A DNA stretch of 64,000 nt from Sporobolomyces roseus (Eukaryota; Basidiomycota; Microbotryomycetes; Sporidiobolales; Sporidiobolaceae). The first letter of the stretch is position 1. Every line of letters begins with the position of its first letter. The stretch is from the NCBI GenBank assembly GCA_016617785.1, contig JADILM010000005.1, positions 1-64,000 on the forward strand, read 5' to 3'. A model generated the notes under the pieces. That model was not told the DNA's origin and made no database searches. It saw only the letters and a program-made list of their open reading frames with translations. The translations under genes and the position numbers were made by a program. Below are positions 31,681-63,685 of this stretch, piece after piece.

Positions 31681-32825
31681 ATGAGCCAGCATGCAGCGGC
31701 CTCTTCGTCTTCAGCAATGCCGCCTCCCTCAGTACCGGTCGATGATTCGCTGATCGCGATGGCTGAAGGCAACGAAAACCTCGATGAAATCAAGCATCTC
31801 GCAAACTCGGAGACTATCGAATTGATCCAGGAAGAGCTGAGCAACACTGGAGAGCGGGGTTGGCAGTTCATGTCAAAGCGTAGAGACGGACACGGGGTTT
31901 TGTGGACGAGGAGGATTTGTCAGGAGTTACTAGACGTCCGGAAAGACGTACGTTTTGAGCAGTTCAATGCTCGCAGAGACACTGGCCTGAACATGAGTGT
32001 CTTTTCTTTGGCGCAGACTTGGAAGCTCAAAAGTTTGGAGACAACGGTCAAACAATTCCGCGTTCATTTCCTCGAGATCTCGCATTGAGATTACGTTCAA
32101 GCGCTGACTCAGTCTCGATGATTCAAACAGGCTCTTCTGTGCAAGCATATTTCAACCGCCATCTTCATTCCCTTCAATGGTCAAGTCCACGAGCTCGTAG
32201 ACTCAGTGTCTGACGAACTCAAACTTTCGCTACTCAATCTCACAATCGTTGATGTCGAAGCTCTGTGGGAGGAACTCGACAATGATGGAATGAAGATGAA
32301 CATTGTTCATTCTTACGTCATGCAAGTCGCAGCACTCAGTCACGCCATCCGTTCCGTGCAGGCAGACCCCGAACATGATGTCGAGCAACTGGCCCTGTTG
32401 CACAAACAGATGGTCAGTCTCCAATTTCAAGGCTCACGGCTGAGACTTTCGCCATTGATTCACAGCATGAAAGAGTGAAACTCATCAGTAATCAAGTGGT
32501 GAGTACTTCCTTTCGCTGCCTCTCAACTATTCTTTCAGCTCTACTGACCGGTCTCGTGATTTTTCTCAGTGGGGAACACTGGGACAGATCTGGTTTGATG
32601 TGAGTGAATACCTCTTAATGTCAAGCTCAAAGCAAAAGACGTGACGCGAATCGATTTCGTTACCGAAAATAGTATTGGAACCACAATGTAACAAATCATC
32701 GACTAACAGAGACGCTCCGACTGGTCCCTGGGGATAAACCGGGCGGACTCACGGCGGCACACTCCCTCGCTCGTTCTCATCACGCCTTCATTCCCGTTCC
32801 TCGCAACTCTCGTTTTCAATTCTAA
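31681..32825 (+). CDS. MEF1, micro-exon family protein, unknown function
   Basis: Six exons are 31681-31947, 32017-32061, 32131-32412, 32466-32498, 32570-32599 and 32673-32825, giving 269 residues; every intron is phase 0. Domain A (exon 1) holds ELSNTGERGWQFMSKRRDGH and LWTRRICQELLDV. Domain B (exon 3) holds ELKLSLLNLTIVDVEALWEE. The 33-base exon encodes HERVKLISNQV and the 30-base exon WGTLGQIWFD. The last exon starts YWNHNV and ends HAFIPVPRNSRFQF. This is the only MEF gene on the plus strand and is closest to MEF6. The GTTCAT donor of exon 2 is non-standard. No known domain recognised; the content suggests helices. Confidence 0.72.
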
Positions 32826-33221
32826 ACTTCCTTTTGCTACATCCCTTTACACTTTCTCTTTGATCCTCTTCTTACCCCCCTTCCTTTTGACTTTCTTGAA
32901 TATCTACGCAATTCCTTTCCCCTTCCTTGAACTGTCCAAAGAATCTCGTTGCGAAAGATGAGAATCGGCGGCTCTCTCTCTCGAATTCAATCAAGTCCCA
33001 GAATCGGATAGAGAATACGACGATAGCGATACATTATTGCTGATACAAACAATTAGCCGACCCTATCACGAGAAACAAGACATGGAGCGTACAGCCAAGA
33101 GCGGAAAGGATGAAAACGAACAAAAAGAATGGATATGATAATCTCCCTCCCTCTCCCAACCCCTCTCCCGCTGTCCTACCTTTCTCCTACACTTCTCGTC
33201 CCCTACTACCCCTCCTCAAGT

Positions 33222-33901
33222 TTACAGAACCAATCCCCCTCCAATAATTCCCATCAAAACCACTGATCCTCCAACTAACAATCCCACTCCCCCTCCTTCT
33301 GCACCCCATCCAACCTTTCTCCCAATCGCAGCATTCACCGTCTACACCCACCGTCACCCAAACCAATCAGTACTCCCTTCCAATCTCGCTCAAAATCGAA
33401 AAGAATAATATTTGGCTCACCTGTAAATTAGTTGGATCCGGTTCCAACGCCGTATTCCCCCCCGCACCTCCAGCTGATGCAGGTACTTGAGGGTTCGTGA
33501 TGTTTCCAGTAGGAGGTACCGTACTAGCCGCTGCAGTATACGTAAAAGAATCGCTCAAATAAGGACCATTTTCAAGAGTGATCACACTAATCCTCTTATT
33601 CAAAACATCAGCTCATAGGAAATAGATAAGTGAGAAGAGAGGGAGGAAGGAGGAGCTTACGAGCCTGGAATAGGGGATGAACCGGTTGCGGTTGGAGTGA
33701 AAGTGTTTGGGATTGAGAAAAAGGGTACGGAGGTGGTGGATGTAGAATTTACTAGGGTTGAGGAAGGCGTTAGGGAGGTTGTGACGGATTGGGAGAACTA
33801 GAGGAGATGGAAGAGGTTAGTTTGGAATGGGACTAAAGGGGGAGGAGGGGACTTACGGCGAGTGAGGAGAAAGAGACGAGGAGGAGGGACCGTAGTAACA
33901 T
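33222..33901 (-). CDS. Small secreted or surface-anchored Ser/Thr-rich protein
   Basis: Four exons are 33857-33901, 33661-33797, 33421-33592 and 33222-33341 (157 residues, all in phase). The first exon encodes the whole signal peptide, MLLRSLLLVSFSSLA. The mature part is rich in Ser, Thr and Pro with NST and NIT glycosylation sites. The C-terminus is a hydrophobic Gly/Val/Leu helix (VGLLVGGSVVLMGIIGGGLV) that either spans the membrane or serves as a GPI signal. It converges with MEF1. Likely a cell-surface glycoprotein; there is no enzymatic signature. Confidence 0.7.
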
Positions 33902-38694: not shown

Positions 38695-39822
38695 TCAAAC
38701 GCCTACGTCGTCGTGGCTTCTACCGATCGGATGGAAGACAGCAGGCGTAGGGAGAGGAGATGCTGACTGAGTTGGTGTGGGGTGCGAAGTATGGGAAGGA
38801 GGGTCAAGGGATGAATCGCATGAATCCTTCGTAGCAATCGCTTTCTCTGTTTCTTCTTCTGCTTCCTCCTCCTCGTCGTCACGAATTTGCTCTTCAGAGT
38901 ATAGCTTTTCGTGCAGTTGAGGGTATTTCGATATATGTTTATTCCACGCCTGCACGAAGAGTCTGTTTAGCTCATCAGCGGCAACAGACTGCGAAAGCGA
39001 GGAATTACCCTTTTCCAGTTCGAGTTCAACGCTTCTTGCTGTCATAATTGACAAACGTGTCAGATGGAAGCGATGGTGAGTAATATCCGAGCAACTCACA
39101 CAGTAGTCCTCGAAATCAGTCACATCGTCGTCCTGATTGTTTCGACACAAAAATGAGGTGAGCGTTCCTTCTCGACGGGTAAGCGAGACAAGACGAAACG
39201 TACAATTTCTGCATGAAGATCTTCCAACCTGGGCTGCTTGTTGATCTTGTTCCTTGATCTCTCCTCCTTTCGCAATGACTTTCGCAACCTATCGTAGCAA
39301 CGGTTCAAATCGCCTTCGTTGTAGGACGCTAAACGTTCAAAGTCTTCAGATGACAGGTTGAGGAGAGCTGCTCGGAAACATATCATCTCGTGAAACCTTG
39401 ACTTGGGTAGACTGCGAATGGCAGTTTCGAAAGGATGAATCCGATGATGAAGGAAATGTTCGATTTGTGCGAGGATAGCTTTCACTTCGTCGAGATGTTT
39501 CACGCCCTATGTGATCACGAAAAAGATCAGCTTCGGACTCTCAGGCGAGATAGTTGAGATCGAGGTACATCGACGCTAAAGTTCTTTAGGAGAAGACTGA
39601 GCGAATCGATCAACGCTTTCGTCGGTGCGATCCTTCGTCCTTGAGTGTACTTCGTCCTAATAGGCATCATCCTTGTCGTCCCTTCATTCCAGTTCGCCAG
39701 TGAACTCTTCTTCAGGCGCTGCTTCAATTCAGCGAAAACCTCGTGATCCGGCAGTTTCGCAACGAGCGAGCGAAAAGTAGTGTAAGGTCGAGGTGGCGCT
39801 ATGAAGGTATGGCCCGCGACAT
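38695..39822 (-). CDS. MEF2, micro-exon family protein with apparent start-proximal frameshift
   Basis: Exons are 39569-39822, 39204-39506, 39100-39132 and 38695-38988. Domain A (RPYTTFRSLVAKLPDHEVF, SSLANWNEG) aligns residue by residue with MEF7. The only suitable ATG (39822) leaves the exon one base short of the domain frame (254 bases), so the start is frameshifted relative to MEF7. Domain B: FHEMICFRAALLNLSSEDFE. The 33-base exon encodes DDDVTDFEDYC. The 30-base exon is fused to the last exon (ADELNRLFVQAWNKHISKY), which has an acidic run (DDEEEEAEEETEK). All other introns are phase 0. It may be a recent pseudogene, a sequencing error or an unusual start. Confidence 0.62.
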
Positions 39823-40051: not shown

Positions 40052-41134
40052 CTACTGATTCGAGAAGAGGTTTCGACGATGAACGGGATGGAAGCGGGAG
40101 GTGTGCGAGAGGGAGTGGGAGTGTGTAGGAGAATCGGAAGGTGAGTCCTTGTAGCATTCGAGAGTTTCGATATCTTTTGCATGCTTATCCCAAATCTGGA
40201 GGAAGATGAGAAGGGACGATCAGCTTCGATCAGCTTCGGCCACTGTGATTGCATTGAGCCAGCGAATCTCACCTTCTTCCATACCTTCCCAAGAGCATCA
40301 GCCTGTGAAGAGATGCGAGTACGAAAGGATCAGTTCCGCGCGTGGCAATAGAATGAAAACGAAACTTGCACAATTTCCATCGATCTCTTCCACCTTCTCA
40401 GTCTAGCGCATATATAAGAAGTCAGTTCGGATTGGTATGACCCGCTCTCGTGTCTCTGTGAACTTACAGCTTCCTCTTGAATTGACTCCAACACTTTCTG
40501 TTTCGGGATTGCTTTCTTGCGCTCTTGTCGCTCTTTCTCGACAATAACGCCTAGCTCGTGTAGTTGACCTTCGAAGTGATCAGGCTGAAAGTGTAGCAAG
40601 GTGACGAAATTCTGGAAGTGAAGTTCGTGAAGAGATTCGACGAGACATTCGACTTCGCGGAATTTCGACTGGCGGATGTGCTGGTGAATAGTTTTGCCGA
40701 TCCGAGTACTCGATAGTCCTGCCTAGTGTGGGATGAGCGAGGCTGAACAGAGAGAGTATAAACAGACATCAAAGAGAGCAAGAATTTTCTCAAGCTGCGA
40801 TAGTTTCTCGCTTGACTGAGAGCAAACAACATTGAGTCTCAGCGAGATGTATGATGTGAGTTAGTAGGAGAAACCGACTGACCTGTTTGCCCATACCCTT
40901 CTCCTGCACGGCACCGTGAAGAGCGTTCCTCAAGATGTCAACCCAGGAAACCGAGGAGTCTTGAGTAGGCTGAAGTTCAGGCGGCGCACGAGCAAGGCTC
41001 ATGGTCTGATAGTCGGCTTCGTTGATGTTGAGCAGCTTGTTCTGGATCTCGGTTCTTTCTGTGACGGAATCGGTGAGATTCGAGAGTCGTCGAGCGAGAT
41101 TTCGAAAGCGTTCGAACGATCCGGAATGCGACAT
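40052..41134 (-). CDS. MEF3, micro-exon family protein, unknown function
   Basis: Six exons are 40883-41134, 40768-40815, 40468-40722, 40370-40402, 40273-40302 and 40052-40195; 253 residues, all phase 0. Domain A begins MSHSGSFERFRNLARRLSNL and ends VDILRNALHGAVQEK. Exon 2 encodes LSQLEKILALFD. Domain B carries SKFREVECLVESLHELHF. The micro-exons encode TEKVEEIDGNC and ADALGKVWKK, and the last exon starts IWDKHAKDIETLE. The intron after the 33-base exon has a GC donor (TGT|GCAAGT). Upstream lies the shared element at 41561. Confidence 0.75.
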
Positions 41135-41560
41135 TCAGCCTCGTTTGGTGAATAAGAGTGAAGGGAGATGAAGAAAGAGAGATCGGGTTTAGGTTGACCT
41201 TGTCAAGATAGGAGATTCCGCGGTCAGGACGAGGGAAAAGTGGGAAACTGGGAAAGAAAGGGGTCCTCACCAGGAATCCCTAGGCACCTCTCCCATCTCC
41301 ACCTACTCCTAAGGTCTCGACGAGTGTAGTCAGCCTAATCCCGAAGCTGTATGATGACAGAAACGATCCCAAGAACGAGAGGGAATTGAAAGAGAGGAGA
41401 CGAGTGGGAGCATAAGCGTGAGCAGCCGAGAAAAGGCGCAGAGTAAACTAGCAGCTCCTATGATAGCTATCAGCGATACAAGAGCATCTTGAGGGATCGA
41501 GTGAGTTGTAAGAAGGAGAGAAACGAATCGTCAAACTTTTGGTTCTCCACCATTCGCTCG

Positions 41561-41597
41561 ACTAGCTCAGACGACCAGCTGAATAGCTAGAACTACT
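41561..41597 (+). promoter_or_regulatory. Shared upstream element of MEF genes (copy at MEF3)
   Basis: ACTAGCTCAGACGACCAGCT followed by GAATAGCTAGAACTACT lies 428 bases upstream of the MEF3 ATG. The 41600-41900 segment beyond it is also related to 45245-45480. The minus-strand frame at 41625-41903 (acidic, IDSEIESSEGEEVEEN) may be a small gene or a shadow. No other gene is seen between 41135 and 42124. Confidence 0.45.
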
Positions 41598-42124
41598 CAA
41601 TCAAGTATCAGTAACGACCTACAACTATCGCAAGCATCGCCAGAAGCCTACATTTTCTTCAACTTCTTCCCCCTCCGAACTCTCAATCTCCGAATCGATT
41701 TCTACAGCGTGAGGGAGATACTCAGCGGTGGACAGCTTGCTCGGAGACCAGTAAGCCTCCTCTTTACCGATACTGCTGATTTCAGAGTTGTATTCGTTTC
41801 GCTTGATTTGACAGACTCGCTCGTTTCTCGAAAGATCGAAGTCGAATACAGCGCGTACGCTTCGTTTACAGTATGATTTCGAGTTTAGCGCTCGGCTACG
41901 CATCTGTAACCCTCATTAGCTTACGCTCGCTCCGTTTGCGCTTCTTTCGCTTTTTCGACTCTTTCTCCGATTCGGGTTTCTTTCGTGCTTCGAATATTCT
42001 CGGTTCTTGCTTATGGTATCTTCCTTTTACCCAGTGTATCAAGAAGTTGGAATCAAGCCGACAGAGGGGACTGGAGAAAGGAGGGGGGAGATATTGATTT
42101 GACGGTGTGAAAAGGGAATCAAGA

Positions 42125-43243
42125 TCAGAAAGGAACGTTGAAGACTCGACGATCAAGGGCTCGAAAAGGTTGATAAGGATGATTGTGGGAGAGTGAATGA
42201 GTAGGTTGGTGAGGATTGGTCAAAAGAGGTACGCCCAACTCTGGAGCTTTCCCATTCCAGTACTGACGGATGAGAGAAATCATTAGTTCCTATGGTGTAA
42301 CGACAAAAGCTGACTCACCCCAACCCAAGTACCTTTGAGCTTGTTGATCTGCAGAGGTAGATGGTTTCGTCAGTAAGCTGATCCGCGAGACACATCAACT
42401 TCGAGAACAACGAGAACTTACGAGAATCTGGTTGATCTCGTCTACAAGTTTGCTCTGTCAACAGTATCAAAAAAATGTGATGTGAGCGTGCCGCTGTCGA
42501 CTCCGCTACCGACGGAAGACGTACGGCAGTATCTTCATGTTCAGCGAATCGTTTTGGTTCCCGGAGAGCCAGATCCAAAGATTGCTTAATTCTATACAGG
42601 CAGTCCTCTATGGCTTTAAGGCATGTCTGACCTCCTCTTGACTCCTCCCGCAGATCCGCAATCTCAGGAGGGTTCAGCTCGAATAGAGAGCGATTGAGGC
42701 ATTCAATCTCTTTGCAATTGGAAAGCCCAATACCTTGCACATGCAACATCAGGCGATCGAATACACGCTCAAGAAGCTCTTCCTATATTAGTTTGTACAT
42801 TACCGTTGCAAGTGATTTGGTCAGCTGCTACTCAAGACGACAAGAAACAGAGTCGAACCTGAAATCCTTTGATGCGGTCTTTGAGTTCCCTCAAAGTCCA
42901 CCCTCTTTCCTGTTGACATTCTAGCCGCATCAGCTTAGCACAATCTGCTGATTGACTTGGAGCTCACAGCCCTAGCAGTTTTTCCAATTGCGACGCAAAG
43001 AAATCTCGTCCAGGTCCACTTTTTCAAAGCACCGTCGACAAGGAACTCGTCTTCGTCGCGCGACATCATTGTCCAATCATCCTCAGGAATGGATGCCAAT
43101 TGACGCTTAATCGTGCTGATCTGCGTGCGATTCTCTGGAGTTACGAGTGCGTCCAAGTGTCGAGCCCATTCATGCAAACCCTCATACGTGTAGTTCAGTG
43201 GCGGAAAGATTGCAAGGCTGAGGTGACTAGGAGAGTGTGACAT
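42125..43243 (-). CDS. MEF4, micro-exon family protein, unknown function
   Basis: Six exons are 42968-43243, 42859-42909, 42525-42782, 42422-42454, 42319-42348 and 42125-42262; 261 residues, all phase 0. Domain A starts MSHSPSHLSLAIFPPLNYTY and contains SIPEDDWTMMSRDEDEF and WTWTRFLCVAIGK. Exon 2 encodes ERGWTLRELKDRIKGFQ. Domain B contains NCKEIECLNRSLFELNPPEI. The micro-exons encode SKLVDEINQIL and INKLKGTWVG, and the last exon starts YWNGKAPELG. This is the cleanest full model of the family. Confidence 0.78.
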
Positions 43244-43342
43244 CTTGAACAGCTGAAGAGGAGGAAATAAAGATGTCGAGTTGGAGATGAAGCAGGGCTG
43301 TAGAGAAGAAAGGAGAAGAGCGGTTGTAGCGAGTCTCGAGAT

Positions 43343-43569: not shown

Positions 43570-44739
43570 TCAAAACGCATCGAGGGATTTTGAGCGTTCC
43601 TTAGGAGTGAACACATCTTTTGGTCGCATTGGCAACTCATGCGAGTCAACCAATAAGTATGCGTCACGAGGTAGTCCGTAATGTCTAGCACTTGCGTTCC
43701 AAATCTGCGAAACTATCTCGATCAGTCAAGGTTGGGCGCGGCGTGGGAACAAGCGGGGTTACACGCTCACCTCTGCCCAATTGTCCTTGATTACGTCCAT
43801 CTACGCGCTCACAAAAGAGTGAATTCAGTTGGGCGCAAAGGAAAACAATGAAACGGGATTAGTTACGATCAGGTTTTGAACGCGAACAGCCTCATGGATC
43901 TACAGGAACGGTGGGCCAATCATCAGCTCAGGTGTGCAAGCAGACAATGGTGAAAGGATCTCCCACAGTTGTATCAGTATCGTGAGTAATTGCCGTCTCA
44001 TTCTCTTCTGACCGTTTCCTCAAATTCGTTCGGAGTCTATTCATTGATACATTGATCTTTCCGAATGCTAGGTTGACCTCGTGGAAGACAAAGCCGTGCT
44101 CATTCTCCGTCCTTGCGAGGATGTCGAAATCGGCTAGGCTGAGTTTCATGATCGCGTGTTGTAGGCATTCAATCAAAGGGTATCCTTGTAAACGTGGTAT
44201 ATCGTCGATCAAGATCTGAAGATCATCAAAGTCTTCTTCTTCGAATGAGGTGATCTCAGCGATGCGTATTTGGACGGCGGCCTATTCGATCAATTTACGA
44301 GTGAATTACTCCTCGATTCACTGACAACACGGTATGATTACTCACCTTGTAGCGATCAATTACAATCATCAAGCCATGTAAAGCCTGCGCAATAGGAATA
44401 GATAGCGTAAGTCTGCTGATGGAGATCCGAAACAAAAACGAGAGATGAACTTACGATGTTTCCCAACCTCGCTTCGTGTATCGATTGATACAGGTACTTT
44501 GTCCAGCTAATTTTCCTCTTCTGTCTCCCCAATCCAACGTCGAGAAACACATCCGCCATAGCATTCCATTGAGCCTTGGAGATTGAGTTCAAGAAATTGG
44601 TCGCGATGTGCAGAGTTCCTGAAGTTTCGGTCTTGAGTGAGCCGAGGAGACGGACTTCATCGAGAAGCCTCTCATGTGTGATAGGACCAGGAAGAGAGTG
44701 GTTCGTGAGACTGTCGGACGAAACGATGTTGTGCTGCAT
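43570..44739 (-). CDS. MEF5, micro-exon family protein, unknown function
   Basis: Six exons are 44455-44739, 44346-44384, 43967-44281, 43867-43899, 43771-43800 and 43570-43704; 278 residues, all phase 0. Domain A has NSISKAQWNAMADVFLDVG and ISWTKYLYQSIHEARLGN. Exon 2 encodes ALHGLMIVIDRYK. Domain B has PLIECLQHAIMKLSLADFDI. The micro-exons encode IHEAVRVQNLI and MDVIKDNWAE, and the last exon starts IWNASARHYG. The donor after domain B (GTGGGA) is weak but its position is fixed by homology. Confidence 0.75.
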
Positions 44740-45209
44740 GTCGAATGTTGGAAAGGAAAAAGGGAAAAAGACTGAAGAGGAGAGGCGAGAGAAGAGGGAG
44801 CTGTCTGTTGGATAGAGGCGTTTGCGAGACCACCGGGAGTAGACGAGCGTATCCCGCTCCCATCCCGCTCCCGAAGAGGACGTAGCGAGTAGAGCGAAAA
44901 AGGAAGCGGGTCGATATTGTTCCGCTTTGTGGGAGGTAATCGATTTCGCGGTACTTTGAGGGACTGCTGTAGCATTTAGAGATCAGCGTTCAGTCGACAG
45001 GTCGTCATCAAAGCCCGAAAGATTGAAGGAAGAGGAAGTAGCAAAAACGAAGCGAATTAGTATGACGGAAGCTCCGGGACTGGCTGTGGATAAGCCAAGA
45101 GGCTCCAGAAGCGAACAGAGGGCATCAGTAGGAGCATTCGATAGTCGAGTGAGCGGTAGGAAGGAAAGAAACGAAGTGCTTCTTCCTTGCCCTTAACCGC
45201 TCACTGCAG

Positions 45210-45244
45210 TAGCTCAGACGACCAAGTGAACAGCCAGATCTACT
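45210..45244 (+). promoter_or_regulatory. Shared upstream element of MEF genes (copy at MEF5)
   Basis: TAGCTCAGACGACCAAGTGA followed by ACAGCCAGATCTACT lies 471 bases upstream of the MEF5 ATG. Flanking DNA on both sides (about 45160-45480) is related to 41510-41830. No gene is otherwise seen between 44740 and 45767. Confidence 0.45.
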
Positions 45245-45767
45245 AAATCAACTCTCAGTAACAACCTACAAGTATCGCAAGCATCGCTAGAAACCCACAT
45301 CCTCGTCAACTTCCCACTTCCCACTTCCCACCTCCAAAGCGACTGCAGCGGCACAACGAGGCTATGAGGGATAGAGGAATTGTTCAGGGCACTATAAGCT
45401 CACCCTCTATCTCGCTACGGCTGACCTCGGTATCTTCCTCGCTTTGTTTGACTCGACAGACTTTCTCGCTCTAATTTTCGAATTCTTCAACTCCAAGATA
45501 ACGCTTTACCCTTTCCCAGGAACTGCTGGATTGGACTGTCAGCTTTGTCAGCTTCCTAACAGCCCAGCTCGCAGACTTTCACTTCACTCGAAAAAATCTC
45601 GCTTTGTTTTCGATTCTCATTCTTCGCTTTTGTTCCTTTCCATTTGCTCAGTACACGCCGAGCTTTCACTCGAGACCCACACAGAGACTCTCTCATACAG
45701 ACGCGCGACGAAGGAAAGAGGTCAAGGAATTGAGGAAGGAAGGCAGAGGTATCCAGAAAAAGGGAAT

Positions 45768-46914
45768 CTACAACAATCGGAACTGAGATTGGCGAGTGAC
45801 GGGGAAGAAAGCTCGATGGTTTTGAGCAAGAGAGTGCGACGTCGAGGCTCTGGCAGGTTCATCTCGAGGATCTAGCAGGATTGTGGATGATAATTTACGA
45901 CTCTTCACCATTTTGTTCCAAAACTGATCGCAATCGAAGTCAGACTCCGAATGTCTCTGTCAGTGAGAAGGATCAACTCACAATGGGCCAGACCGAACCT
46001 AGTATCTTCCACTGAATCGAGACAGAAGGGTATCAATAGAGCTCGATAATCGAATGTCGAAAGTACAATGACTCACGACAAGATCGCTGATTTCTTTCAC
46101 TTTCCAATGCTGTCACAGTAGCGCATTCAGTTCAGACATCAGAGCGATCTAGGCCACGAGAGAAGAACACTCACAATCGCTCCGTGCAGTCGAGTGACTT
46201 CGTCCCGATCATCAGCTCCCCTTTCTTGACTGATCTCGTCGGCGAGCTGTAGGTTTGCGTTGAGTTCGTTGAGGTACTGATCCAGTGTACTCAATGTCGT
46301 TCCGTCGCGATCATGCTTCTTACGAATCGCTTCGACGTCGACGGGCCTAAGACGGGAGAGAGAGAATTTCAGGCATTCCACTTCTGCGAGGCTCGACTCC
46401 GACATTCGTTCGACAAGCTTCTTGAAGTACTTGATGCTGAATTGAGAGGAGTGCCGGAGGAGAATCGCCTGCTTTCGGAAAGAGATAAGTTTCGGATCGT
46501 CAGAATGGTTTGCAGAGGAAACAAACACAGAACTCGGCGACCGTGACGTTGAGAGCGGAGAGTTTCAATCTCTGGATTCGGTATCTGCACGAATCAGCTA
46601 GTGTCTCTGATTCGATTCAATGAGGAATTCGTACTGACATCTTTCTGCACATCAACCAGCTCTTGCGTGATTCTTCTAGTCCAGATGATGCCCATCTTGT
46701 CTGTCTTCCCACTCATGATCGCCCATCCTTCTTTGTCAACGTCTTCCAGCTGTTCCTGAATCGATTCGACCATTTTCGAAATGCTGACCGTGCAATGCTT
46801 GATCTTGTCGAGAGCCTTAGCCCGCTCGCGCATCGTACTGAAAGACGAAGTATCGGAAGGTCGAGGAGGGGGAGGCATTGACAAAGAAGACGAGCACCCT
46901 TGGTGATAGGCCAT
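45768..46914 (-). CDS. MEF6, micro-exon family protein, unknown function
   Basis: Six exons are 46639-46914, 46527-46571, 46175-46468, 46077-46109, 45982-46011 and 45768-45923; 277 residues, all phase 0. Domain A contains LEDVDKEGWAIMSGKTDKMG and IWTRRITQELVDV, nearly the MEF1 wording. Exon 2 (RLKLSALNVTVAEFC) has the same 45-base length as in MEF1. Domain B contains VECLKFSLSRLRPVDVEAIR. The micro-exons encode HWKVKEISDLV and WKILGSVWPI. The last exon starts FWNKMV and has SHSLAQNHRAFFPVTRQSQF, parallel to MEF1. It is the inverted partner of MEF1. Confidence 0.76.
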
Positions 46915-47418: not shown

Positions 47419-47449
47419 CTAGCTCAGACGACTCGACCAACAGCTAGGA
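47419..47449 (+). promoter_or_regulatory. Shared upstream element of MEF genes (copy at MEF6)
   Basis: CTAGCTCAGACGACTCGACC followed by AACAGCTAGGA lies 505 bases upstream of the MEF6 ATG. The intervening 47158-47400 matches the MEF1 upstream region in inverted orientation, including an ATGAGCGA(T/C)AGCG start and a purine-rich CGAGAAACG..GCGAGAAGCGAAG segment. Confidence 0.45.
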
Positions 47450-48958: not shown

Positions 48959-49968
48959 TTACAGTGCAAACGAGGAGAACTTTCGATTGATAGGCCTGAA
49001 TTGCGAATGAGCGAGAGAGCGCGAACTTCTGGCAAGTCTCGCTTCTTCTGCTTCGATCGCTTTCTCGCCGTACACCCAAAGCTTGGGGTATGCTTGCGCA
49101 TGCGCGTCCCATAGCTACATGAGATGGCTCAGGATCAGCTCTGCATCAGCTCTCGAAACCGCGAGCGAAAACCATGCAGACCTTCATCCAGAGTAAACCA
49201 AATGCCCTTGACTGCTACCGCTTGATCAGTTCAGCACTGTATCTTGAGATAGAAATTGCGAGAGCGAACTCACGCAAAATTCTTCGAAATCATGCCCAGC
49301 TTCTATCTATATGAGGCAGTGCCGTGAACAAACAGGAGCAGAAGCAGGAAGGAAGGACTTTACAAGCTTGTCATGTATACAACCGGTGAGTGAACCGGCG
49401 GCTTTCCTTTCCTCTAGTGCCGACTTCAAGGCTCGGACATATCTTCTTTCAGCCGAATCAGACGCTTCAAGATCTTGCCAGCTCGATCGCGGTAGCGCAA
49501 GTAGCGTGGACGTAAGGCATTGTATTTCTGGGATACCGGACGTCGGTAGATTGTTGACTATGATGTAAAGGTCACCTTTGGCCCGAAGAAAGTCTTCGAT
49601 CTTGTTCAAGACGAAAACTACGGTCTTCAAATGCTTCTCGAGCTAGGCAATCATAAGGCGGTCAGTCACATTCAAGGAGTATCATAAGAGGCAAAATTCA
49701 GTAACATCTGACTGACCTTGTCTTCGCCACGTTCAACCAGTATGTCCAGGGCGGTAACCAAAGCCTTGGTAGGTTTGAGCTTCTTCACCCCGCCTTTGCT
49801 CAGCCAGTCAACCATTTCCATCTGCTCCGTCGCTATCTCCCAATCTTGTTTACTGAGGTTACGCAAACGCCTTTTGACATCGCCGAAAGTGTCCGAGGGT
49901 AAAGCATTGACCAAGCTGAGGAAGTGGTCATAGGGGCGGATCGGTGTTGCAAAAGAGGAGTCCGACAT
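48959..49968 (-). CDS. MEF7, micro-exon family protein, unknown function
   Basis: Five exons are 49717-49968, 49364-49642, 49274-49306, 49182-49211 and 48959-49114; 249 residues, all phase 0. Start MSDSSFATPIRPYDHFLSLV. Domain A has RNLSKQDWEIATEQ and KPTKALVTALDILVER. The small exon 2 of other members is fused to domain B (LEKHLKTVVFVLNKIEDFLR, IPEIQCLTSTLLALPRSSWQ), as in MEF2. The micro-exons encode IEAGHDFEEFC and SRAFGLLWMK. The last exon starts LWDAHAQAYPKL and ends with SLAHSQFRPINRKFSSF. Nearest to MEF2. Confidence 0.76.
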
Positions 49969-50793
49969 GCCACTACTGACAATGTCGACAATAGGAAAAG
50001 AGAGAAGGGAGAGAGAAGAAGCAAAGACACCGGGTTTTGAAGGAGGCGAGGGAAACTTGAGCATGTTCCTCCTCTGCCTAAAGCCGACGAGCGCGGGGTA
50101 GTAGCGTATCGATCGGATCTACGGAGATACCCGTCGCGTGAGAAGAGAGACCCGGGACGAAGGAGGTGGGCAAGTAGAATGAAGAGACCAACCACAAAAG
50201 CGCGAGCAGCGGAGGGATCGAAGACGCCTCGGAAAGGATCATGCTAATAGATCGAAGCAGTATAGAAGCATCGCAAAGATCCGGCGAGACCGTGAGAGGC
50301 AGAAGAGAGAGAAACGGTCCGCTCATTTCTTGAACCTCGTCTAATCACTCGACAAGCCCAAAGGACCTCGCCAGCCGCTCAAGAACACCAGCAGCCTATT
50401 TGGACTTGCCCGAAGCTATTCCTAACATCCCTCAACACCCTCAAATCGACTTCAATCTTTTCATCTCGATTTCGCTTTCCCAACCGAACAGCACCACAGA
50501 GATCGCTGCTGCAAGTCCAGATACTACCATTATCTATATCTCTCTATGCTGTAGGAAGCTAACCTCGCTGTGTTACGGCGTTGCCCTCACAGAGCTGCTA
50601 AGCCGAATCTTCTCCAATCTCGCTTCGTCCCGTTCATTCGGATTTAAGCTTAGGCGCGCTATCTTCAGCGGAGAAAATTCGTAGGTGAGTTCAGACTTAT
50701 TCGAGTGATCGAAAATTGACATTCAATCTCATTCTCTCGCAGCTCTCGCCTCTTCATCCTTCCGAACCCAGCGCCCCCTCACTCGATCACACG
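49969..50793. promoter_or_regulatory. Divergent upstream region of MEF7 and an F-box gene
   Basis: This gap lies between divergent starts. Around 50340-50370 there is a weak echo of the MEF upstream element (CACTCGACAAGC), too degraded to call. A plus-strand frame at 50400-50684 has no splice support. The F-box frame itself stays open upstream to an ATG at 50716. Confidence 0.35.
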
Positions 50794-51986
50794 ATGTCAC
50801 ATCCTACTTCCCTTCCTACTGAACTCCTCACCGAAATCTTTCGACACGACCAACTTTCGAAATCCGACCTCGCAAACTGCTGTCTCCTCGCTCGACGATA
50901 CTTACCCTTGACACTCGAAGTTCTCTACAACTCCGTCACACTCGACATCTATCGAGTCGGAAGCTTCAGTGAACCCGAAGACATCAAGTGGGTTTACACC
51001 AGTTCTTGCGATCAATTCCTCGTTACTCTCGAAGACAGACTCAAACTAGGTCGATTGGTCAAGAAAATCCATATTGAAGTGCACGAAAAGAGGAAGGAGG
51101 AGCTGTCACCCTCTGTCGACTTGATACGACCCGACAGATCTCTACAAACGATTCTCAACCTTGTTCCGAACGTCAACTCCCTCAGACTACCCGAAGATTG
51201 GCAAGATCATCCTCGAATCAAACGCGTCGTCAGTCGTACAGGATCACGTTGGACAGAACTGGACGTCGATGGTGACATTGATTTGAGTCGAGTCGGAGGG
51301 TGGAAGATTTTTCCGAATCTCAAGAAATTGAGGTGCTGGAGTTATGGGTATCGAGAGAGGCTGCTCCACTCTGCTCCAATCCCTGATACTCTGGACACAC
51401 TGGACTGCTGGGGCCCTCGACCTTTAGGGAGCGAACTTCCACCACCTCCGACCGATTCAAATCTTCGAGTATTCCGCACGCAAATCTCGCACGACGCACT
51501 ATGGTTCATCACTCAGCTCACCAAATTGCAGCATCTCGTACTCATCGAAAGTTCCTTACCCTTGTCCCCCTCTCCTGATCCCTCAGTTCTTTCGCAATTC
51601 TCGCATCTCCCAAGCCTCAAATCCCTCACCTACAAATCGTCTCATAGGACACCTTACTTTCATCCTACTCTCGCTCTACTCCTCAGTCATCTCCCTTCTT
51701 TCGTCGAACGCCTCGATTTCCCTCATGTCGTTCCCTTCGACCAACTCGAAACCTTCTTCGCATCTCCCGTTTCTTCCTCCATTCGCACCCTCGGACTCTC
51801 ACGAAAGGTGGTCAATTCTGGAGTCTTCTCAGGGCAGGTGGATACGCTGAGGAAGGTGTGTCAGGCGAGAGGAATCGAGATCGACTCGATTGACGAAGCA
51901 AAAGGTGTTTTCCGTGAGTATCTCGATCGCTCGCATTCTTGCCCTACACCACGCTTACTTATATCTTCTCGCTTTCAGATATGTGA
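50794..51986 (+). CDS. F-box protein with leucine-rich C-terminal part
   Basis: Exon 1 is 50794-51913 and exon 2 is 51979-51986; phase 1, 375 residues. The final intron (GTGAGT..TTTCAG) removes a non-homologous tail, so the protein ends AKGVFHM. The start MSHPTSLPTELLTEIF places the F-box at residues 6-50, as in the relatives; an in-frame ATG at 50716 would add 26 residues. Leucine-rich segments follow (LKKLRCWSYG, LDTLDCWGP, LRVFRTQIS, LQHLVLIESS, LKSLTYKSS), then RIDFPHV-type and IRTLGLSRK motifs. Predicted SCF substrate receptor. Confidence 0.8.
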
Positions 51987-52987
51987 TCATCACCCTCGCC
52001 TCTTCGCTCGCAACAGTCGAACTTTCCGAGTGTCGAGAATCGATTCTTCCCTCTTCTCGACCCGCCAACTCGCACTCCTCGACTGTCACCTCCCATGTTC
52101 CCCGTCGCAGCCATTCGTCGTGAATCTTGCCACGGTGTACTCGCTATGAACGATGGGACAGGGAACAATAATGTGTGGAAAGGAAATGGCGGAATTGAAA
52201 CGAGTTTCGATCGAAGAAATCAGATCTCGGGGGAGCTGGTGGATAGATCCGAATGCTCTCCGTTGGGACCATTGTTATCTATCTTGCTTACAATCATCTG
52301 ATGTTGCTCGTGGACGGATCTGATCGTTGCAATCGTGGTAGTCAACCGAGTTTGAACGACGAGTGAGAGAAATCCATTATTTCGTCCGTTATTTTTCGTT
52401 CGCTCGCGAGATGCAGTGATCCCGCCTACGCACGGTTGACGTTCTGCTCGAGCATTCACCTATGACCTACAAGAGAGAGTGATTAAAACTGTTTGAAACT
52501 CGCTCAACTCTTGCCCTTCCTCACTTTCGCTCACATCTCCTCAAACTGCTCAGTAGAACACCTACGGCTTCGATTGAGTCTACGAGAGGTACTAGCAACT
52601 ACACGCGCAAGCTCTTGCCTCAATCTTCAAGTCGAATCGCTTCATCAAATTCGGAACTTTCGACTCGACCGCAAACAGCTTCAGAGACCATAGAGATAGC
52701 TTCCCGGGCATCAGAGACAGTCCAGTAAGTCTCTCAACTATCCTGAGCAGCTATTCGAGGTGAATGAGCTGATCTCGATTGTTCCTTTGCTCATCTAGTC
52801 AATCCATTCTTCATTCTGAGGAACAGCAGAAGCACTCAAAAGCTACCAGTGCAGTCTCAAACTGATCTATGTAAGACCCACAGGCGCTCGAGAACCGTAC
52901 CAGAGGAAGCTGACTTTCTCGTTTCGCTCGAAACAGCCTTTCTTCTCCCGATTCTACCGCTGCCCTCCTTACTTCCCCTCGCCCGAC
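51987..52987. other. Spacer between two tandem F-box genes
   Basis: Frames on both strands are short. The sequence just before the next ATG (52880-52980) resembles the leader of the preceding gene in composition. Nothing else seen. Confidence 0.35.
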
Positions 52988-54241
52988 ATGACCACTACCT
53001 CCTCTTCGTTCCGCCCTACCCCCACTGACCGCTCTACTCTCCCTCCGGAACTCATCGACCAGATCCTCCGCGACGAATCCCTCTCGAAACGCGATCTCGC
53101 AAGATGTTGCCGTGCCAACCACCAATTCCTGTCCTCGTCTCGCCCACCCCTCTATCACTCGATCGTCATCTCTGTTCCTGTACTCGAGGATGAAAGGGAG
53201 GATACCGTCGGCTACAGTCTCGATCCGTCAAGCAGATCTGTACTTCGAACTCTCGCCGACTATCCCTTCCTTGCTCGATACATCCGACATCTCGACATGC
53301 GCACGAGACATAACGTATCTGGAACCCATACTATCGACTTCCTGGAGCTTGAAGAAGCATTCGAATTGGCTCTCGCAAGAATGCCTTGGATCGAATCGCT
53401 CGCCCTCGCAGATCAACACTTCTGGAGGAGGAATCCAGTCCGAGACCTGGTGTTCGAGCGAGGTACACAGTGGGTGGGACTGAGTGTTGCTGGAAGCATA
53501 CTGGATCAGGATAGAGACAGAAGGAATTGGTCCGATTTACCCAACTTGAGGAACTTACATGTTTGGGAGCTAGCGAAGAACCCTCGAGTCGACCATCGGA
53601 TACCAGCTAGGATTGAGACACTGAATGTCGAAATCGACATCTACTGCCGCACAGATCTATCGTTCGAACCAGGATCACGCCTCAAAGTTCTTCGCATTCC
53701 CGCTTCGAATCGACACTTCAGTCCTCATCTTGCCGCTCTTCACCACCTACAACATCTTGACATACACGACTTTGCCAATCGTCAACGACTTCCTGTGATT
53801 GGCCTCACACTGCCACTTACGCCCCTCGTCCGCCTCCGCTCTTTAACCCTCTCCGTCTCAATCTGGACGCAATCTTCAGACGCACCCACGCTGGAGATAA
53901 CGACATTCCTCGCCTCGATTCCTCCCTCAATTGTGCGGCTCGACTTCCTGAGCAAGCTCCCTGCAGAGTCGATCATTCGCCTGCTGGAAACGGGACAGCT
54001 TTCTTCTCTTCGTGTCATCGGGTTCCTTCGACCGCGCAAAGACCCAGTCATCTCTCCCTTACGAGTCGACATCGACTACTGCCGTCAGGAACGACACGTG
54101 CAGCGAGTTACCGAGCTGTGCGACGAAAAGGGGATAATGACCGAGTTCATCAAAGCAGGAAGCGTCAATCGGAGTCTGTACGTCTCCTTCCCATCGCTCT
54201 CTCCGATACTGAGAAAGATGCTGATACTCTCCTTCTCTTGA
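52988..54241 (+). CDS. F-box protein with leucine-rich C-terminal part
   Basis: An open frame of 417 residues starts MTTTSSSFRPTPTDRSTLPP. The F-box lies at residues 18-64 (LPPELIDQILRDESLSKRDL, ARCCRANHQFLS, LYHSIVISV). Later come LPNLRNLHVWELAK, RLKVLRIPAS, LQHLDIHDF and LRSLTLSVS repeats and the C-terminal VTELCDEKGIMTEFIKAG. As in the neighbour, a terminal intron is possible (donor GTACGT at 54178, acceptor before 54246), which would replace the last residues by a short Ser/Pro tail ending at about 54292. It lies tandem to the gene at 50794. Confidence 0.82.
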   Translation: MTTTSSSFRPTPTDRSTLPPELIDQILRDESLSKRDLARCCRANHQFLSSSRPPLYHSIVISVPVLEDEREDTVGYSLDPSSRSVLRTLADYPFLARYIRHLDMRTRHNVSGTHTIDFLELEEAFELALARMPWIESLALADQHFWRRNPVRDLVFERGTQWVGLSVAGSILDQDRDRRNWSDLPNLRNLHVWELAKNPRVDHRIPARIETLNVEIDIYCRTDLSFEPGSRLKVLRIPASNRHFSPHLAALHHLQHLDIHDFANRQRLPVIGLTLPLTPLVRLRSLTLSVSIWTQSSDAPTLEITTFLASIPPSIVRLDFLSKLPAESIIRLLETGQLSSLRVIGFLRPRKDPVISPLRVDIDYCRQERHVQRVTELCDEKGIMTEFIKAGSVNRSLYVSFPSLSPILRKMLILSFS

Positions 54242-58018: not shown

Positions 58019-59104
58019 CTACCAGAGAGAAACTACATCGATCCCCTCCTCCCGACATGCACTGCTGAAAGTTGCTAGTCTTAGCTGGTTGCACTCGCTA
58101 GAGGTAAACCTGCTGCTAATGCCAATGGACCGAACCGAAAAGGTTGTCGCAAAAGAGGTGACGAAAGGCTTGAGGAATTCGAACGGAGCGGCGTAGAGGA
58201 AATCGATACGCTCTACAGAGGGTGGCAGGTGACTTAGGAGGTCGCGCAGTATCGCTCTGGAACGCAATGGGGCGATGTCGATGCTGAGCGAGCGGAGAAC
58301 GGGTAGAGTAGAGAACGTGGCTAATGTTGCCTCTTGTAGAGAAGCAGGTAGCTCGCCTCTTTGAGAGAGGGTCAAGTGTTGAAGATTCTGGAAGGAGCCG
58401 AGACGAGCGAATGATTTGTCGGAAAATCGGCAGCGGAGGACGCGAAGTTGAGAGTTTGGTAGAGGTTCGGTAGAGGGAAGATCACGCTCCAAGTCGAGAA
58501 TTTCAATTGACGAGGGAAGTGCGAGAGTCGGGTCTTCTGTAACGGACAGGTTAAAGCAGCGTACTTGTCGTAAATTCGGTAGTTCGTGCCATTGTTTCGC
58601 CTTTTCCTCCCTCGTCACGCTGAGTAAATTCATACCGACGTTGAGCGTTCTCCATCGCTTTCCCTCTGAGAAGACCAGCGCCCTCACTGGCTCGAGACCC
58701 CACACGCCACTTCCCAAACAGAGAGAGTCCAGTCTTGGGGTCAGCTCGGGAAACTTTGCGAGAAACTCCTCGACTCTACTCGCGCTTAAAGGGTAACCTC
58801 TGAGCACCTCCATCTTCTTGATATACCCGCACAGACTGGAGTTCTTCCTCAACGTTTCAAGAAGAAGTCGATCTAGATATTGCCAAGTTCCACCGCTCAC
58901 TCCCCACTTGGACCGTCCGTCACAGATTGTGATGGAAGAGTAGAGCAGTCTTTGAGTGATCGAGAGGAGTCGGTGATTGACGAGGCAGCATCTTGCGAGA
59001 TCAGGTTTCGAAAGTCGTGAACCCTGCAGAATTTGCGAAATGAGTTCGGTGGGAAGGGGTGGAGTGGAGTGAATGACGGAATGAGCGAGCGTGGAGTTGG
59101 ACAT
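58019..59104 (-). CDS. F-box protein with leucine-rich C-terminal part
   Basis: A single exon of 361 residues. The ATG at 59104 (MSNSTLAHSVIHS) is chosen because it lies just before the F-box; the frame stays open upstream without homology. F-box at residues 17-60 (LPTELISQILQGSRLSKPDL, ARCCLVNHRLLS, LYSSITI). Later: LPNLRQVRCFNLSV, SIEILDLERDL, LRVLRCRFSD, LQHLTLSQRG, LRSLSIDIAPL and VERIDFLYAAP, and the end CREEGIDVVSLW. All match the neighbouring F-box genes. Confidence 0.82.
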   Translation of the reverse strand: MSNSTLAHSVIHSTPPLPTELISQILQGSRLSKPDLARCCLVNHRLLSITQRLLYSSITICDGRSKWGVSGGTWQYLDRLLLETLRKNSSLCGYIKKMEVLRGYPLSASRVEEFLAKFPELTPRLDSLCLGSGVWGLEPVRALVFSEGKRWRTLNVGMNLLSVTREEKAKQWHELPNLRQVRCFNLSVTEDPTLALPSSIEILDLERDLPSTEPLPNSQLRVLRCRFSDKSFARLGSFQNLQHLTLSQRGELPASLQEATLATFSTLPVLRSLSIDIAPLRSRAILRDLLSHLPPSVERIDFLYAAPFEFLKPFVTSFATTFSVRSIGISSRFTSSECNQLRLATFSSACREEGIDVVSLW

Positions 59105-60112
59105 GATGAGATGAGAGGGGATTGGGGGAAGGTGAGAGCCGAGAGGAGAAGCTCGGGATTCAGAAGGGAAGACTGCGAGAGGAGGAGCAGAAACTATCAG
59201 CGTCTCGTCTCTTCCGATAATCTGGCAGGCATGGGGATACACACGTTCGAGATGAACCTTGCTACAGCCTCGTACTCGCACTCTGCGAATCTAGGTCGAC
59301 TGACTTTGTTGATTTCGAGTAAACAGAAACTTTTTGAAGCTACACGCGCCCTCGACAAGGATTAGGATGACTAGAAGCACTCGGTGACGATACTACGGTA
59401 CTCACGTTGCTGTCAGTACAACGCCCACTGTCCTCTGTCAACTTGTACAGCCTGTTTGAGATTGAAGGAGTTGAGGGAGAAGTTGTGTTTGTTCTTCAAG
59501 TCGGGCGATTCTGTTGTCAATCGGAGAATGTAGTGAAGTGATTACTGAGTACTTTTAGCTATCAAATGAGTCGCCCGAGCTAGTCAAGTGAGTTGTGCAA
59601 GATCAAAATTATGATGATTCGTTTCTCTCCTTCCGACCATTCATCTGATCGACTAAGGCTTCCTCTATGACTCAGACGATGCATCTAGTAGTCTTAGCTC
59701 TGATCTCACGAGCTTCTATGCGTCGTGCATGTTTGAAATCGCTCGCTTCGTCTCTCAAACTGCCAGCGTTTTTCGCTCCGCCTGCCTTGACAAGTTCTCG
59801 ATGAGACGGTTCACGAGCTGTACACATGCGTTTGATCTAGCACAAGTACTCCCACAACTCCAGGCTTGTTACCCCTTCTTTGTGCTTGACTGAAAGCTGC
59901 CCGTTTCGCCTAGTTTGGCTCGAAGCTGTCCGTCTCTGCGAGTCGAAGAAGGCAGAGACAGCGAAGACAAAGTGTTTACAATCAACTGTATGCTACAAGA
60001 AACAGAAATTGAACGAATGACGACAAAAGAGGAAAGAGAGCGAACGAAAACTGCGATGATATGAACGATAAACAGGAAAGGAAAAGGGACAAACGAGCCT
60101 AAGCCAGGACAA
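59105..60112. other. Spacer between F-box gene and GILT-like gene
   Basis: About 1 kb without a defensible gene. The strand-symmetric, moderately AT-rich sequence has no repeats that I can see. Confidence 0.35.
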
Positions 60113-61548: not shown

Positions 61549-61588
61549 ACAATTTCTCGCAGATTCGGACAATTTCTCGCAGATTCGG
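61549..61588 (+). repeat. Tandem 20-base duplication
   Basis: ACAATTTCTCGCAGATTCGG occurs twice in direct succession (61549-61568 and 61569-61588), in the upstream region of the GILT-like gene. The rest of 61175-61825 shows no gene. Confidence 0.8.
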
Positions 61589-61825
61589 ATCATGTGAAAC
61601 GCGGAAAGCTATACTGAAGCCTCTATCAATTACGAATGTCCGTGATGAAAGCGAGAAAAAACAAGAGAGTCTAGGAAAGCGGAAAACTGAACGAAACGAT
61701 AAGTGGTTTGGGTCCTCCAGACAAGTGCACCATCACCTTTCTCACTAACAGGAGCCGCTTTGAGACTATGGAATGTTACTGCATGAGCAGCAGAAAACCA
61801 TCGTCGGAGTTGTGAAAGGCTCACC

Positions 61826-63685
61826 TTAACAGAATTGAGTTCGCGGCTTCGCTACGAAAGCACTAGACACCATACGCGTTGCGCTCTCATGACGGTCAAG
61901 CTTGTCCTGTAGCCGTGCAAGAGTGAGTTAACGCCCTCAAGCAAGTTACGAGGTGCACCTACCCAGAAATGAGATCCAGCTTGCTTCTGCTCAATTCAAA
62001 AATGATGAGGATCCGCTTTGAAGCTTTATTGAGAGAACTTGAAGCTCACAAAGATGGTTCGAACGTCTTGCTCACACTCGTACTGATCAGTAAAAGTGGT
62101 TATGGCATCGAGGGACAAGGAATTCAAGGGGGGAAGATTCGGAAGAGTCAGAATCAGCTCAATACTGCTTGAGGATAAGCACAAGAAGGCCTCACCACCG
62201 AGCCATAGAGGTGAACAGCCTTTAGTTTTCGCCACAACAAGTGTAATGTCTCGACGAGAACGTCGGAGTTGTGGAGATTGATTGAGTTGTGAAGATTGGT
62301 CGACCAAGGGGGTCGAGTCGCTTCGAGATCATCCCACCAATGCTCAACTTGAATCTCTTGATACCTTACCAAACTAGAGAGTAGCCTCGAGATCTGACGT
62401 CTGATCTGCACTTGGTTTTGACCAAGACTCTTGCTGAACTGTTGTAGATTCGAGCAAGCGATTCTGTACTGTTGCCATGGCGGAAGGCGGCTGATTTTGA
62501 GCGGACAGAGATCAACAAATACTGCATCTGAATTAAGCTCCTGCGTGGACAAGAAAGCCGAGCGTAGATTGTCAGTCTCGAAGGTGCGAAAAGAAAGCGA
62601 AAAACCGACTTTTTTTTCTACCCCAACCTCTGTCTGCCAAGAGATGAAAGGATCAGCTTCGGGCATTTTGACAAGAAAGGAGACTACGAACGAGAAAGAT
62701 CAAGATTTGCTTTTTCTGTAGATTCTGCTCATTCAGTTGTATTCAGTTGCAGTCCGTAGACTCAATCAGGCATCTGCAGGCTGTTGACTAGGGCTTACAA
62801 CTCTGACAGCAAATGGGGCATTCTCATCCTCTTTGAAATCTCGAGTCATACCATCTAGGATAGAGCAGATTCGAGCGGCTAAGCTTGGTTGAGCGTTGTC
62901 CGTCCGAGCCTCTAGCTTGTTCCACATTTTCACGTCGAGTGCTTGTATGAGTGAGATCATGGATCTGACGGCTCGACTGGAGAGTGCTCGTTGAAGCGGA
63001 ATGTCGCGCGCGAGTTGAACAAGGTTTTCGAGACGAAAAGCGAGGGTCCCAAACGAGCTTCCCAAAGGTACACGGTGTTCTGCGGTACCTTGGTATAAGG
63101 AGGATGTGTGTGGCGTGCTCCTAGGATAAGAGCCGGGGGCAAAGGTAGCGGCGGTGGGATCGAGAGAAGAAAGACGAGCCGCTGAAGATTTCTGTTGCTC
63201 ATCAATTTTGTCGTGTGCCTATGGCTTACAAGAATCAGTCAGAGTACAGGATCGATTAGAGTGATACCCACAAGCATGTGATCAAGCTTCGTCTGCTCGT
63301 ATTGCTGATTTCAACGCGAAAAGGCGTGAGCACGAGTAGGTTCGGACGGAAGAAAATAGTTTGTGCTCACAAATGCTCCCCAGTTCTCGTGTTCTATATA
63401 GTATAGGAGCTCACCAAGCGTATCACGGATCAACTTGAGCGTGTGAACACCGTCGAACTTCGTGCTCCTCAGCTCGTCCCATTCTGCCGACGTCAACGAG
63501 TTCAAGATCCGGCATTGAAAGGCAGAGACATCAGATGGGATGTGTTTCGGGACTTTCGGTAGTGCAGCTTGAAGAGCCTTGACGAGGCCTTGCGTAATCT
63601 GGAACTCCGATTCGCGATTGCCGCTTGCGTAATCCTCAAGATATCTTCGTACGCCGGTTTGGTCCTCGCCTGGCTGAGAAGACAT
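61826..63685 (-). CDS. MEF8, enlarged micro-exon family protein with three modules
   Basis: Nine exons are 63371-63685, 63272-63304, 62799-63218, 62692-62724, 62610-62633, 62196-62540, 62050-62082, 61963-61986 and 61826-61906; 435 residues, every intron phase 0. Three helical modules (SAFQCRILNSLTSAEWDELR; ALSSRAVRSMISLIQALDVK; IRRQISRLLSSLVRYQEIQV) are each followed by an 11-codon exon (QYEQTKLDHML, NLQKKQILIFL, YECEQDVRTIF). The end is KQAGSHFW plus DKLDRHESATRM..RTQFC. It could instead be two adjacent genes or have more exons beyond the chosen ATG (MSSQPGEDQTGVRR). Confidence 0.6.

Follow-up and report, generated by a model that had tools for sequence, protein, structure and literature searches.

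The window is the opening 64-kb stretch of contig C5 (1.88 Mb) in the 22.4-Mb, 15-contig assembly of the basidiomycete Sporobolomyces roseus. It contains a family of spliced genes that is apparently undescribed and is called MEF here. Some MEF genes stand head to head with an F-box-like gene, the two diverging from a single promoter-like, partly palindromic element. One of these F-box genes, together with its half of the intergenic region, is present in duplicate, and the two recent copies lie opposite MEF genes that differ greatly from each other. As a tentative reading, held with somewhat less than even confidence, these observations may belong together: a lineage-specific MEF family would take part in a divergent MEF/F-box module that has been duplicated and re-paired through its promoter in the course of genetic conflict. 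The F-box partners, the shared upstream element and a probable internal repeat in the proteins are additions to an earlier note that had described eight MEF genes.

Members and candidates are numbered M1–M11, with M1–M8 in the window and M9–M11 further along C5. Scans with a grammar of the tail exons and with a hidden Markov model (HMM) of the element covered C5:1-264000 and 30 kb of contig C3. The gene models in the window, of which M1–M7 match the tail grammar, are as follows.

31681-32825, plus strand: M1, six exons, 269 amino acids (aa); element upstream
38695-39820, minus strand: M2, five exons, linker fused to domain B; no in-frame ATG found
40052-41134, minus strand: M3, six exons, 253 aa, one GC-AG intron
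42125-43243, minus strand: M4, six exons, 261 aa; no element match upstream, end of M5 about 330 bp away
43570-44739, minus strand: M5, six exons, 278 aa; nearest relative M10 (42%, 289 columns)
45768-46914, minus strand: M6, six exons, 277 aa; nearest relative M1 (39%, 253 columns)
48959-49968, minus strand: M7, five exons, 249 aa; divergent partner of the F-box gene at 50689-52146
61826-63685, minus strand: M8, deviant, with A-like, A-like and B-like domains; one gene or two

The earlier note had ascribed a single architecture to all eight genes. M1 and M3–M6 follow it exactly: domain A, a linker exon of 39-51 nt, domain B, then two short exons of 33 and 30 nt, the second with Trp as codon 8, and a terminal exon beginning (Y/I/F)W(N/D). 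In M2 and M7 the linker and domain B lie within a single exon, and the terminal-exon start that had been given for the whole family, (I/L/Y/F)W(N/D), is replaced by AWN in M2. No in-frame ATG precedes domain A of M2, whose start may therefore be broken. M8, read by eye outside the splice models, shows two A-like domains and one B-like domain, two exons of 33 nt, and one of 30 nt that carries Trp and has an unusual donor; its last exon lacks the W-N/D start, opening with DKLDR... and ending ...SSAFVAKPRTQFC, and it may represent one three-domain gene or two genes. The constancy of exon phase described earlier holds well, as M1–M7 are spliced in phase 0 with a frame that stays open through to the stop in the splice models, and every exon junction of M9 and M10 is likewise in phase 0. 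Low sequence identity was also borne out, with MEF proteins 16–41% identical to M1.

The tail grammar, defined as one exon of 33 nt, one of 30 nt whose codon 8 is Trp, and then X-W-(N/D), occurs at nine places in the 264 kb of C5 and at none in 20 order-3 Markov simulations; these places are thus not chance. The nine places correspond to M1–M7 plus two new members (99601, plus strand; 134669, minus strand), and on C5 a relaxed grammar yielded no further places, just alternative splices of these nine. The 45 introns of M1–M7, M9 and M10 (M8 was left out) measure 45-79 nt and use 44 GT donors and one GC donor, and a CTRAY branch-like motif lies near the acceptor in 31 of them, versus 7.9 expected in shuffles. 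The GC-AG intron belongs to M3, where a GCAAGT donor follows the 33-nt exon at window 40370-40402. That the models are products of chance, or the genes dead, is hardly credible: although M2 lacks an ATG, and M8, M11 and copies at 133-134 kb are irregular, the simulations, the branch motif and the divergence at third codon positions in all four pairs compared (see below) speak against it.

The two members found by grammar beyond the window are the following.

C5:98387-99934, plus strand: M9, three domains, with its own short linker exon after each of the first two
C5:134323-135520, minus strand: M10

The family therefore extends to about 135 kb on C5, and the earlier figure of eight members, seven of which are the spliced M1–M7, was an undercount. 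Domain HMMs seeded with M1–M10 recovered further copies at 133.7-134.1 kb (domain A, E 6e-7) and 65.4-66.3 kb (E 1.6e-5), along with weaker pieces at 133.2 kb (E 0.011), 65.0 kb (E 0.14) and 64.4 kb (E 0.8); the best E values in reversed-frame controls were 0.18 for domain A, 0.58 for domain B and 0.0045 for the tail. M8 is itself among the seeds, so its matches to these HMMs are uninformative. The copy near 65 kb is confirmed as a close relative of M8, which C5:65000-65404, just past the end of the window, matches at 36% over 132 aa (E 6.6e-16). M11, at about 79.6-80.4 kb, is a candidate picked out by eye; its scores are E 0.08 for domain A and E 1.7 for the tail. Nine whole-genome queries with MEF exons, run as a single-sequence, shared-word search that distant members could escape, returned only C5 31-136 kb and one false match on contig C1. 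This weak C1 match was rejected as a member, its translation reading as what we take to be a DEAD-box helicase. Nor was a convincing MEF gene found beside the F-box genes in the 30 kb of C3, where domain HMM matches had E 0.08 or worse; a relaxed-grammar match at C3:804832 is unrelated to MEF and lies inside an F-box frame.

Structure predictions made from single exons and seven sequences give domain A as a helix-helix-helix-hairpin-helix arrangement (predicted local distance difference test, pLDDT, 76.5; predicted template-modelling score, pTM, 0.61), and the linker plus domain B as five helices (pLDDT 67.7, pTM 0.42). Aligned with hhalign, domains A and B match over 72 columns with a score of 16.6, against 9.8 for the best of 100 column-permuted controls and 10.5 for the reversed control. 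Because this score exceeds every control, MEF proteins are probably tandem repeats of one helical domain of about 90 aa, present in two or three copies with a linker helix, and followed by a conserved C-terminal tail that closes with a loose motif, typically S-L-x-H ... F-x-P-x-x-R. A kinship between the MEF domains and the F-box motif, suspected by eye, found no support in hhalign: domain B scored 9.3, which 48 of 100 permuted controls reached, domain A scored 13.3, reached by three of 100, and the tail scored 9.9 without a permuted control.

Database relatives are few. All seven of M1–M7 fall below every Pfam-A cut-off (best E 0.0078, 16.7 bits against a cut-off of 24.3), and none has an NCBIfam match over the cut-off (best E 0.056). 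Nothing convincing emerged from a sequence search of the PDB (best E 0.11, ZorA) or from Foldseek (best E 1.3 and 2.1) and VIA-align (best Z 4.1 and 4.2) with the models of domains A and B. The earlier statement that no known domain can be recognised in MEF has thus survived searches of family, structure-sequence and fold libraries, the last with the models of domain A and of linker plus domain B, none of which returned a convincing well-known family. A database of 5.8 billion proteins yielded 12 distinct nameless fragments related to MEF, 11 of them more than 70% identical to M1, M5, M6, M7 or M9 and one (P0003) 51% identical to M1; fragment P0011 is apparently the window's own sequence. These results support the view, also taken in the earlier note, that MEF is lineage-specific as far as the searched databases reach.

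Low identity between paralogues and their grouping into the outermost 135 kb or so of a contig would suit secreted effectors or surface proteins under pressure from a host or antagonist. However, hydropathy over nine MEF proteins revealed no membrane stretch (maximum 1.35 over 19 residues) and, by this simple measure, no signal-like N-terminus (maximum 1.35 over 10 residues within the first 35), and each protein holds one to seven cysteines. The proteins are probably intracellular, judging from their sequences, and an effector role is very improbable.

The shared element was modelled from the flanks of seven MEF genes (M1, M3, M5, M6, M7, M9 and M10). It is about 145 bp long and promoter-like, and its occurrences in the window are listed here with nhmmer E values.

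31129-31272, plus strand: element on the M1 side, E 4.9e-37, HMM seed
41467-41609, minus strand: element on the M3 side, E 1.5e-34, seed
45127-45256, minus strand: element on the M5 side, E 7.5e-31, seed; 10-nt perfect inverted repeat (45.2 kb)
47323-47466, minus strand: element on the M6 side, E 4.9e-32, seed; 23-nt, 83% inverted repeat at 47359-47415
50259-50389, minus strand: element between M7 and the F-box gene at 50689-52146, E 4.1e-26, seed
59542-59665, plus strand: element of the F-box gene at 58022-59290, no MEF found opposite, E 1.5e-22, non-seed

The seven seed sites score E 5e-37 to 4e-26, and non-seed matches lie at 59.6 kb (1.5e-22), 80.8 kb (1.1e-6), 144.1 kb (6.5e-6), 102.5 kb (8e-4) and 125.0 kb (6e-3). 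A second HMM, built with the first one's own new matches as seeds, was excluded from the evidence. Spacing to the genes is narrow. For genes reading away from the element, its centre lies 356-499 bp from the starts of the seven seed MEF genes and of candidate M11; for eight F-box motifs the distance is 488-547 bp. None of 12 elements has a listed MEF or F-box start within 1.5 kb that reads towards it. The upstream regions are also more alike than the proteins, as exemplified by M7 and M9, which are 74% identical over 317 nt there versus roughly 21% in protein (257 columns, E 0.019).

Some element-bearing MEF genes are followed head to tail by one MEF gene without an element match (M5-M4, M3-M2, and M10 with a copy at 133-134 kb), as if a unit consisted of the element plus two MEF genes. 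On C3, a weak non-seed match in the 30 kb scanned (C3:818914-818994, E 6.8e-6) stands upstream of an F-box gene (C3:817352-818563, minus strand), again with no convincing MEF in those 30 kb, which suggests that the element may belong more widely to that branch of F-box genes.

The palindromic character of the element rests mainly on opposite-strand HMM matches at the seven seed sites, with E from 1.4e-7 to 0.14 (four below 1e-4, three at 0.017-0.14). Of five elements searched for inverted repeats, two contain a clear pair, a third has a short overlapping palindrome at one edge, and the other two have none. The opposite-strand matches would also suit a mobile or recombinogenic inverted repeat, akin to a miniature inverted-repeat transposable element, that came to lie incidentally between the two gene types; matches with E up to 0.01 and more than 1 kb from listed starts, at 167.9, 67.4, 254.2 and 9.4 kb, with weaker ones above that E value, point the same way. 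The narrow range of distances and the constant direction relative to gene starts argue against such an origin, which we regard as improbable.

On the other side of the element stand F-box-like genes. Five were identified in the window, together with a possible relic, and all five match PF12937 (E 8e-6 to 1.5e-3).

50689-52146, plus strand: F-box-like gene, partner of M7; Pfam E 0.0015, 18.7 bits, below the 24.3-bit cut-off
58022-59290, minus strand: F-box-like gene with element upstream; E 5.8e-5, 23.2 bits, below the cut-off
52820-54238, plus strand: F-box-like gene, no element found; E 0.0015, 18.7 bits, below the cut-off
27189-28553, minus strand: F-box-like gene, no element found; E 8.4e-6, 25.9 bits, above the cut-off
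25249-26043, minus strand: F-box-like gene, no element found; E 8.4e-5, 22.7 bits, below the cut-off
47957-48048, plus strand: possible relic of an F-box gene, facing M6; two short fragments that differ in reading frame, E 3.4 and 0.6

Three divergent MEF/F-box pairs are firm: M7 with 50689-52146, M9 with C5:96362-97480 and M10 with C5:136344-137618. M11 and an F-box near 81.3 kb form a candidate pair, and M6 faces the possible relic only, beyond which further weak pieces extend to about 48.58 kb (best tblastn E 0.005 among four short regions searched, which gave 0.079 for M5 and 0.12 for M1). F-box genes have undergone a large local expansion: whole-genome searches list 40 and 32 matches, of which 23 and 24 respectively, some being pieces of one gene, fall in C5:25-157 kb; matches also occur on C3, C2 and C9 and past 1 Mb on C5.

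Among the nine elements with E up to 1.1e-6, five lie 250-750 bp from an F-box motif. Placing nine at random within C5:25-157 kb gave a mean of 0.72, and at least five in 0.03% of 100,000 draws (P 0.0003); stricter placement, outside genes and long frames, gave P 0.003. An association of the element with F-box genes is therefore likely but not overwhelming, and the narrow spacing between element and gene adds to it.

The F-box proteins at 50689 and 96362 are 92% identical over 361 aa (93% over 343 codons, with nonsynonymous divergence, dN, of 0.04 and synonymous divergence, dS, of 0.15). At the nucleotide level, the 50689 side is 86% identical to C5:96301-97907 over 1617 columns. The match begins within the F-box gene, at the limit of the sequence compared, and ends at window 50301, which lies inside the element at 50259-50389. 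Beyond this break point M7 and M9 differ, even in the number of their domains, so that the duplication is partial and covers the F-box side of one unit only. The simplest reading is that an F-box gene with its half of the promoter was copied or converted beside another MEF gene and that the partners were thereby re-paired.

Selection on the MEF genes themselves was estimated by the Nei-Gojobori method (NG86). M5-M10 gave dN 0.52 and dS 2.07 (dN/dS about 0.25), M1-M6 gave dN 0.57 and dS 1.58 (about 0.36), M7-M9 gave dN 1.06 and dS 2.43, and M2-M7 gave no dS. Although dS is near saturation, third codon positions were the most divergent in all four pairs compared, which indicates overall constraint on the protein. 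Near-alleles among the database fragments seemed at first sight to differ by region, with 770 of 851 coding against 154 of 204 non-coding positions identical (P 6e-8; 11 of 12 fragments, P0003 dropped as less than 70% identical), but most of this gap comes from the frame-shifted untranslated region (UTR) of P0001, and P0011 is apparently the window's own. Without these two fragments the counts are 612 of 686 coding and 107 of 124 in-frame intron or UTR positions, with no clear difference. The diversifying pressure proposed in the earlier note is thus neither supported nor contradicted at the level of sites; gene-wide, at near-saturated dS, the ratios indicate net constraint.

Several observations weigh against a module that evolves in conflict, as well as against parts of that reading. 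M2, M4 and M8 have no element match upstream. M1, M3 and M5 have the element and no recognisable F-box partner, a search for relics opposite them finding nothing clear; conversely, four F-box genes (59.1, 101.9, 125.5 and 144.7 kb) carry the element and no recognisable MEF, with nothing clear among MEF relics opposite these elements. No listed element lies within 1 kb of 15 of the 23 F-box motifs listed in C5:1-264000, a list from which a motif at 152.5 kb and pieces at 128.2 kb were left out, and only one of the five window F-box proteins reaches the 24.3-bit Pfam cut-off. Stricter placement weakens fast, to P 0.013 for four of eight elements (E<1e-20) and P 0.052 for three of seven seeds. 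M11 is a candidate only, because its HMM scores are at the level of the reversed controls and the site was inspected on account of its element. The F-box copy beside M9 contains in-frame stops in its full-length match and may be decaying, gene-wide MEF dN/dS is below 1, and hhalign's own probability for the alignment of domains A and B is just 1.7%.

A rival account would see here two ordinary fast-evolving families that expand locally in an unstable region, with the element inherited as a common promoter when a single ancestral divergent pair was duplicated, and the products functionally unlinked. Many unpaired F-box and MEF genes, F-box matches on other contigs with no MEF in the 30 kb of C3 examined, head-to-tail MEF arrays and a stricter placement test of only P 0.003-0.05 all fit this account, whereas the spacing kept on both sides of the element and the persistence of three firm pairs despite deep protein divergence are harder for it to explain. 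We consider it a strong contender, short of an even chance, and an unlinked, co-duplicated pair about as likely as a functional module.

Other genes identified include UreF, Sua5, MIX23 and UDP-glucose pyrophosphorylase; like the short introns with CTRAY motifs, they suit a fungus and probably a basidiomycete. Rfam had no match in the window. Two sets of duplicated minus-strand open frames lie at window 3344-3937 and 10193-10726, both reading ..LPATAHLHRRCLKVLGE.., and at window 11636-12052 and 14393-14764; Pfam matched neither frame of the first set nor the overlapping frame 11796-12323. Further along C5, two pairs of closely similar open frames stand in opposite orientation (C5:112119-113327 with 138393-139763, and C5:103963-105342 with 141266-142645; first 70 residues compared). 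Both pairs straddle a position at about 125 kb and may reflect a large inverted duplication.

Under the functional-module reading, the divergent geometry of the pairs argues for co-regulation, and the shared element would drive MEF and F-box genes together. F-box proteins are substrate receptors of SCF ubiquitin ligases; if the present ones act likewise, an economical model is that each F-box protein acts on or with the neighbouring MEF protein, which would be its client or regulator. More speculatively, and by analogy with toxin-antidote or self-recognition systems, MEF could be the protein that does harm or is recognised, which the F-box protein would then remove, with birth, death and re-pairing of units driven by genetic conflict. 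A specific version, in which each MEF has a matching F-box degrader and recombination inside a palindromic bidirectional promoter swaps partners and creates new specificities, seems unlikely.

Some known systems resemble this arrangement in part. The plant S-locus contains many F-box SLF genes beside an S-RNase, and is thus similar in placing many F-box genes next to a second, very variable family; unlike S-RNase, M1–M7 have no Pfam match to an RNase family. Basidiomycete HD1/HD2 mating-type genes are divergent, redundant and very variable pairs in one locus, yet the partner here is an F-box protein, and Pfam found no homeodomain in M1–M7 or in the five window F-box proteins. The wtf meiotic drivers of Schizosaccharomyces are likewise a fast-evolving fungal family whose multi-exon genes lie in clusters and have a regulatory element upstream; they are single genes for membrane proteins, whereas MEF proteins lack a membrane stretch by hydropathy.

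The closest worked example comes from Caenorhabditis tropicalis, where rapidly evolving F-box antidotes degrade linked toxins through SCF in the elements klmt-1/kss-1, pzl-1/kss-2 and hyde-1/kss-3, the module duplicates, and a toxin partner derives from a tRNA-synthetase subunit (PMC12680543). The likeness lies in a linked two-gene module with a rapidly evolving F-box protein, arising by duplication; the S. roseus genes differ in having an unrelated helical family as the partner, a fungal host and a shared promoter-like element. The same source describes the recruitment of F-box antidotes in nematodes and rice and F-box genes in plant self-incompatibility loci (PMC12680543). No comparable fungal MEF/F-box pair was reported in the literature searched, which comprised mostly freely accessible papers and in part top-ranked entries only; passages of one paper deal with F-box counts in basidiomycetes and not with such pairs (PMC4469406). 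If the proposed module is real, a comparable divergent F-box module in a fungus would carry the antidote idea into another kingdom and offer a directly testable system. Regardless of that outcome, MEF is a protein family, apparently undescribed, whose exon grammar is clear and is missed by searches blind to splicing.

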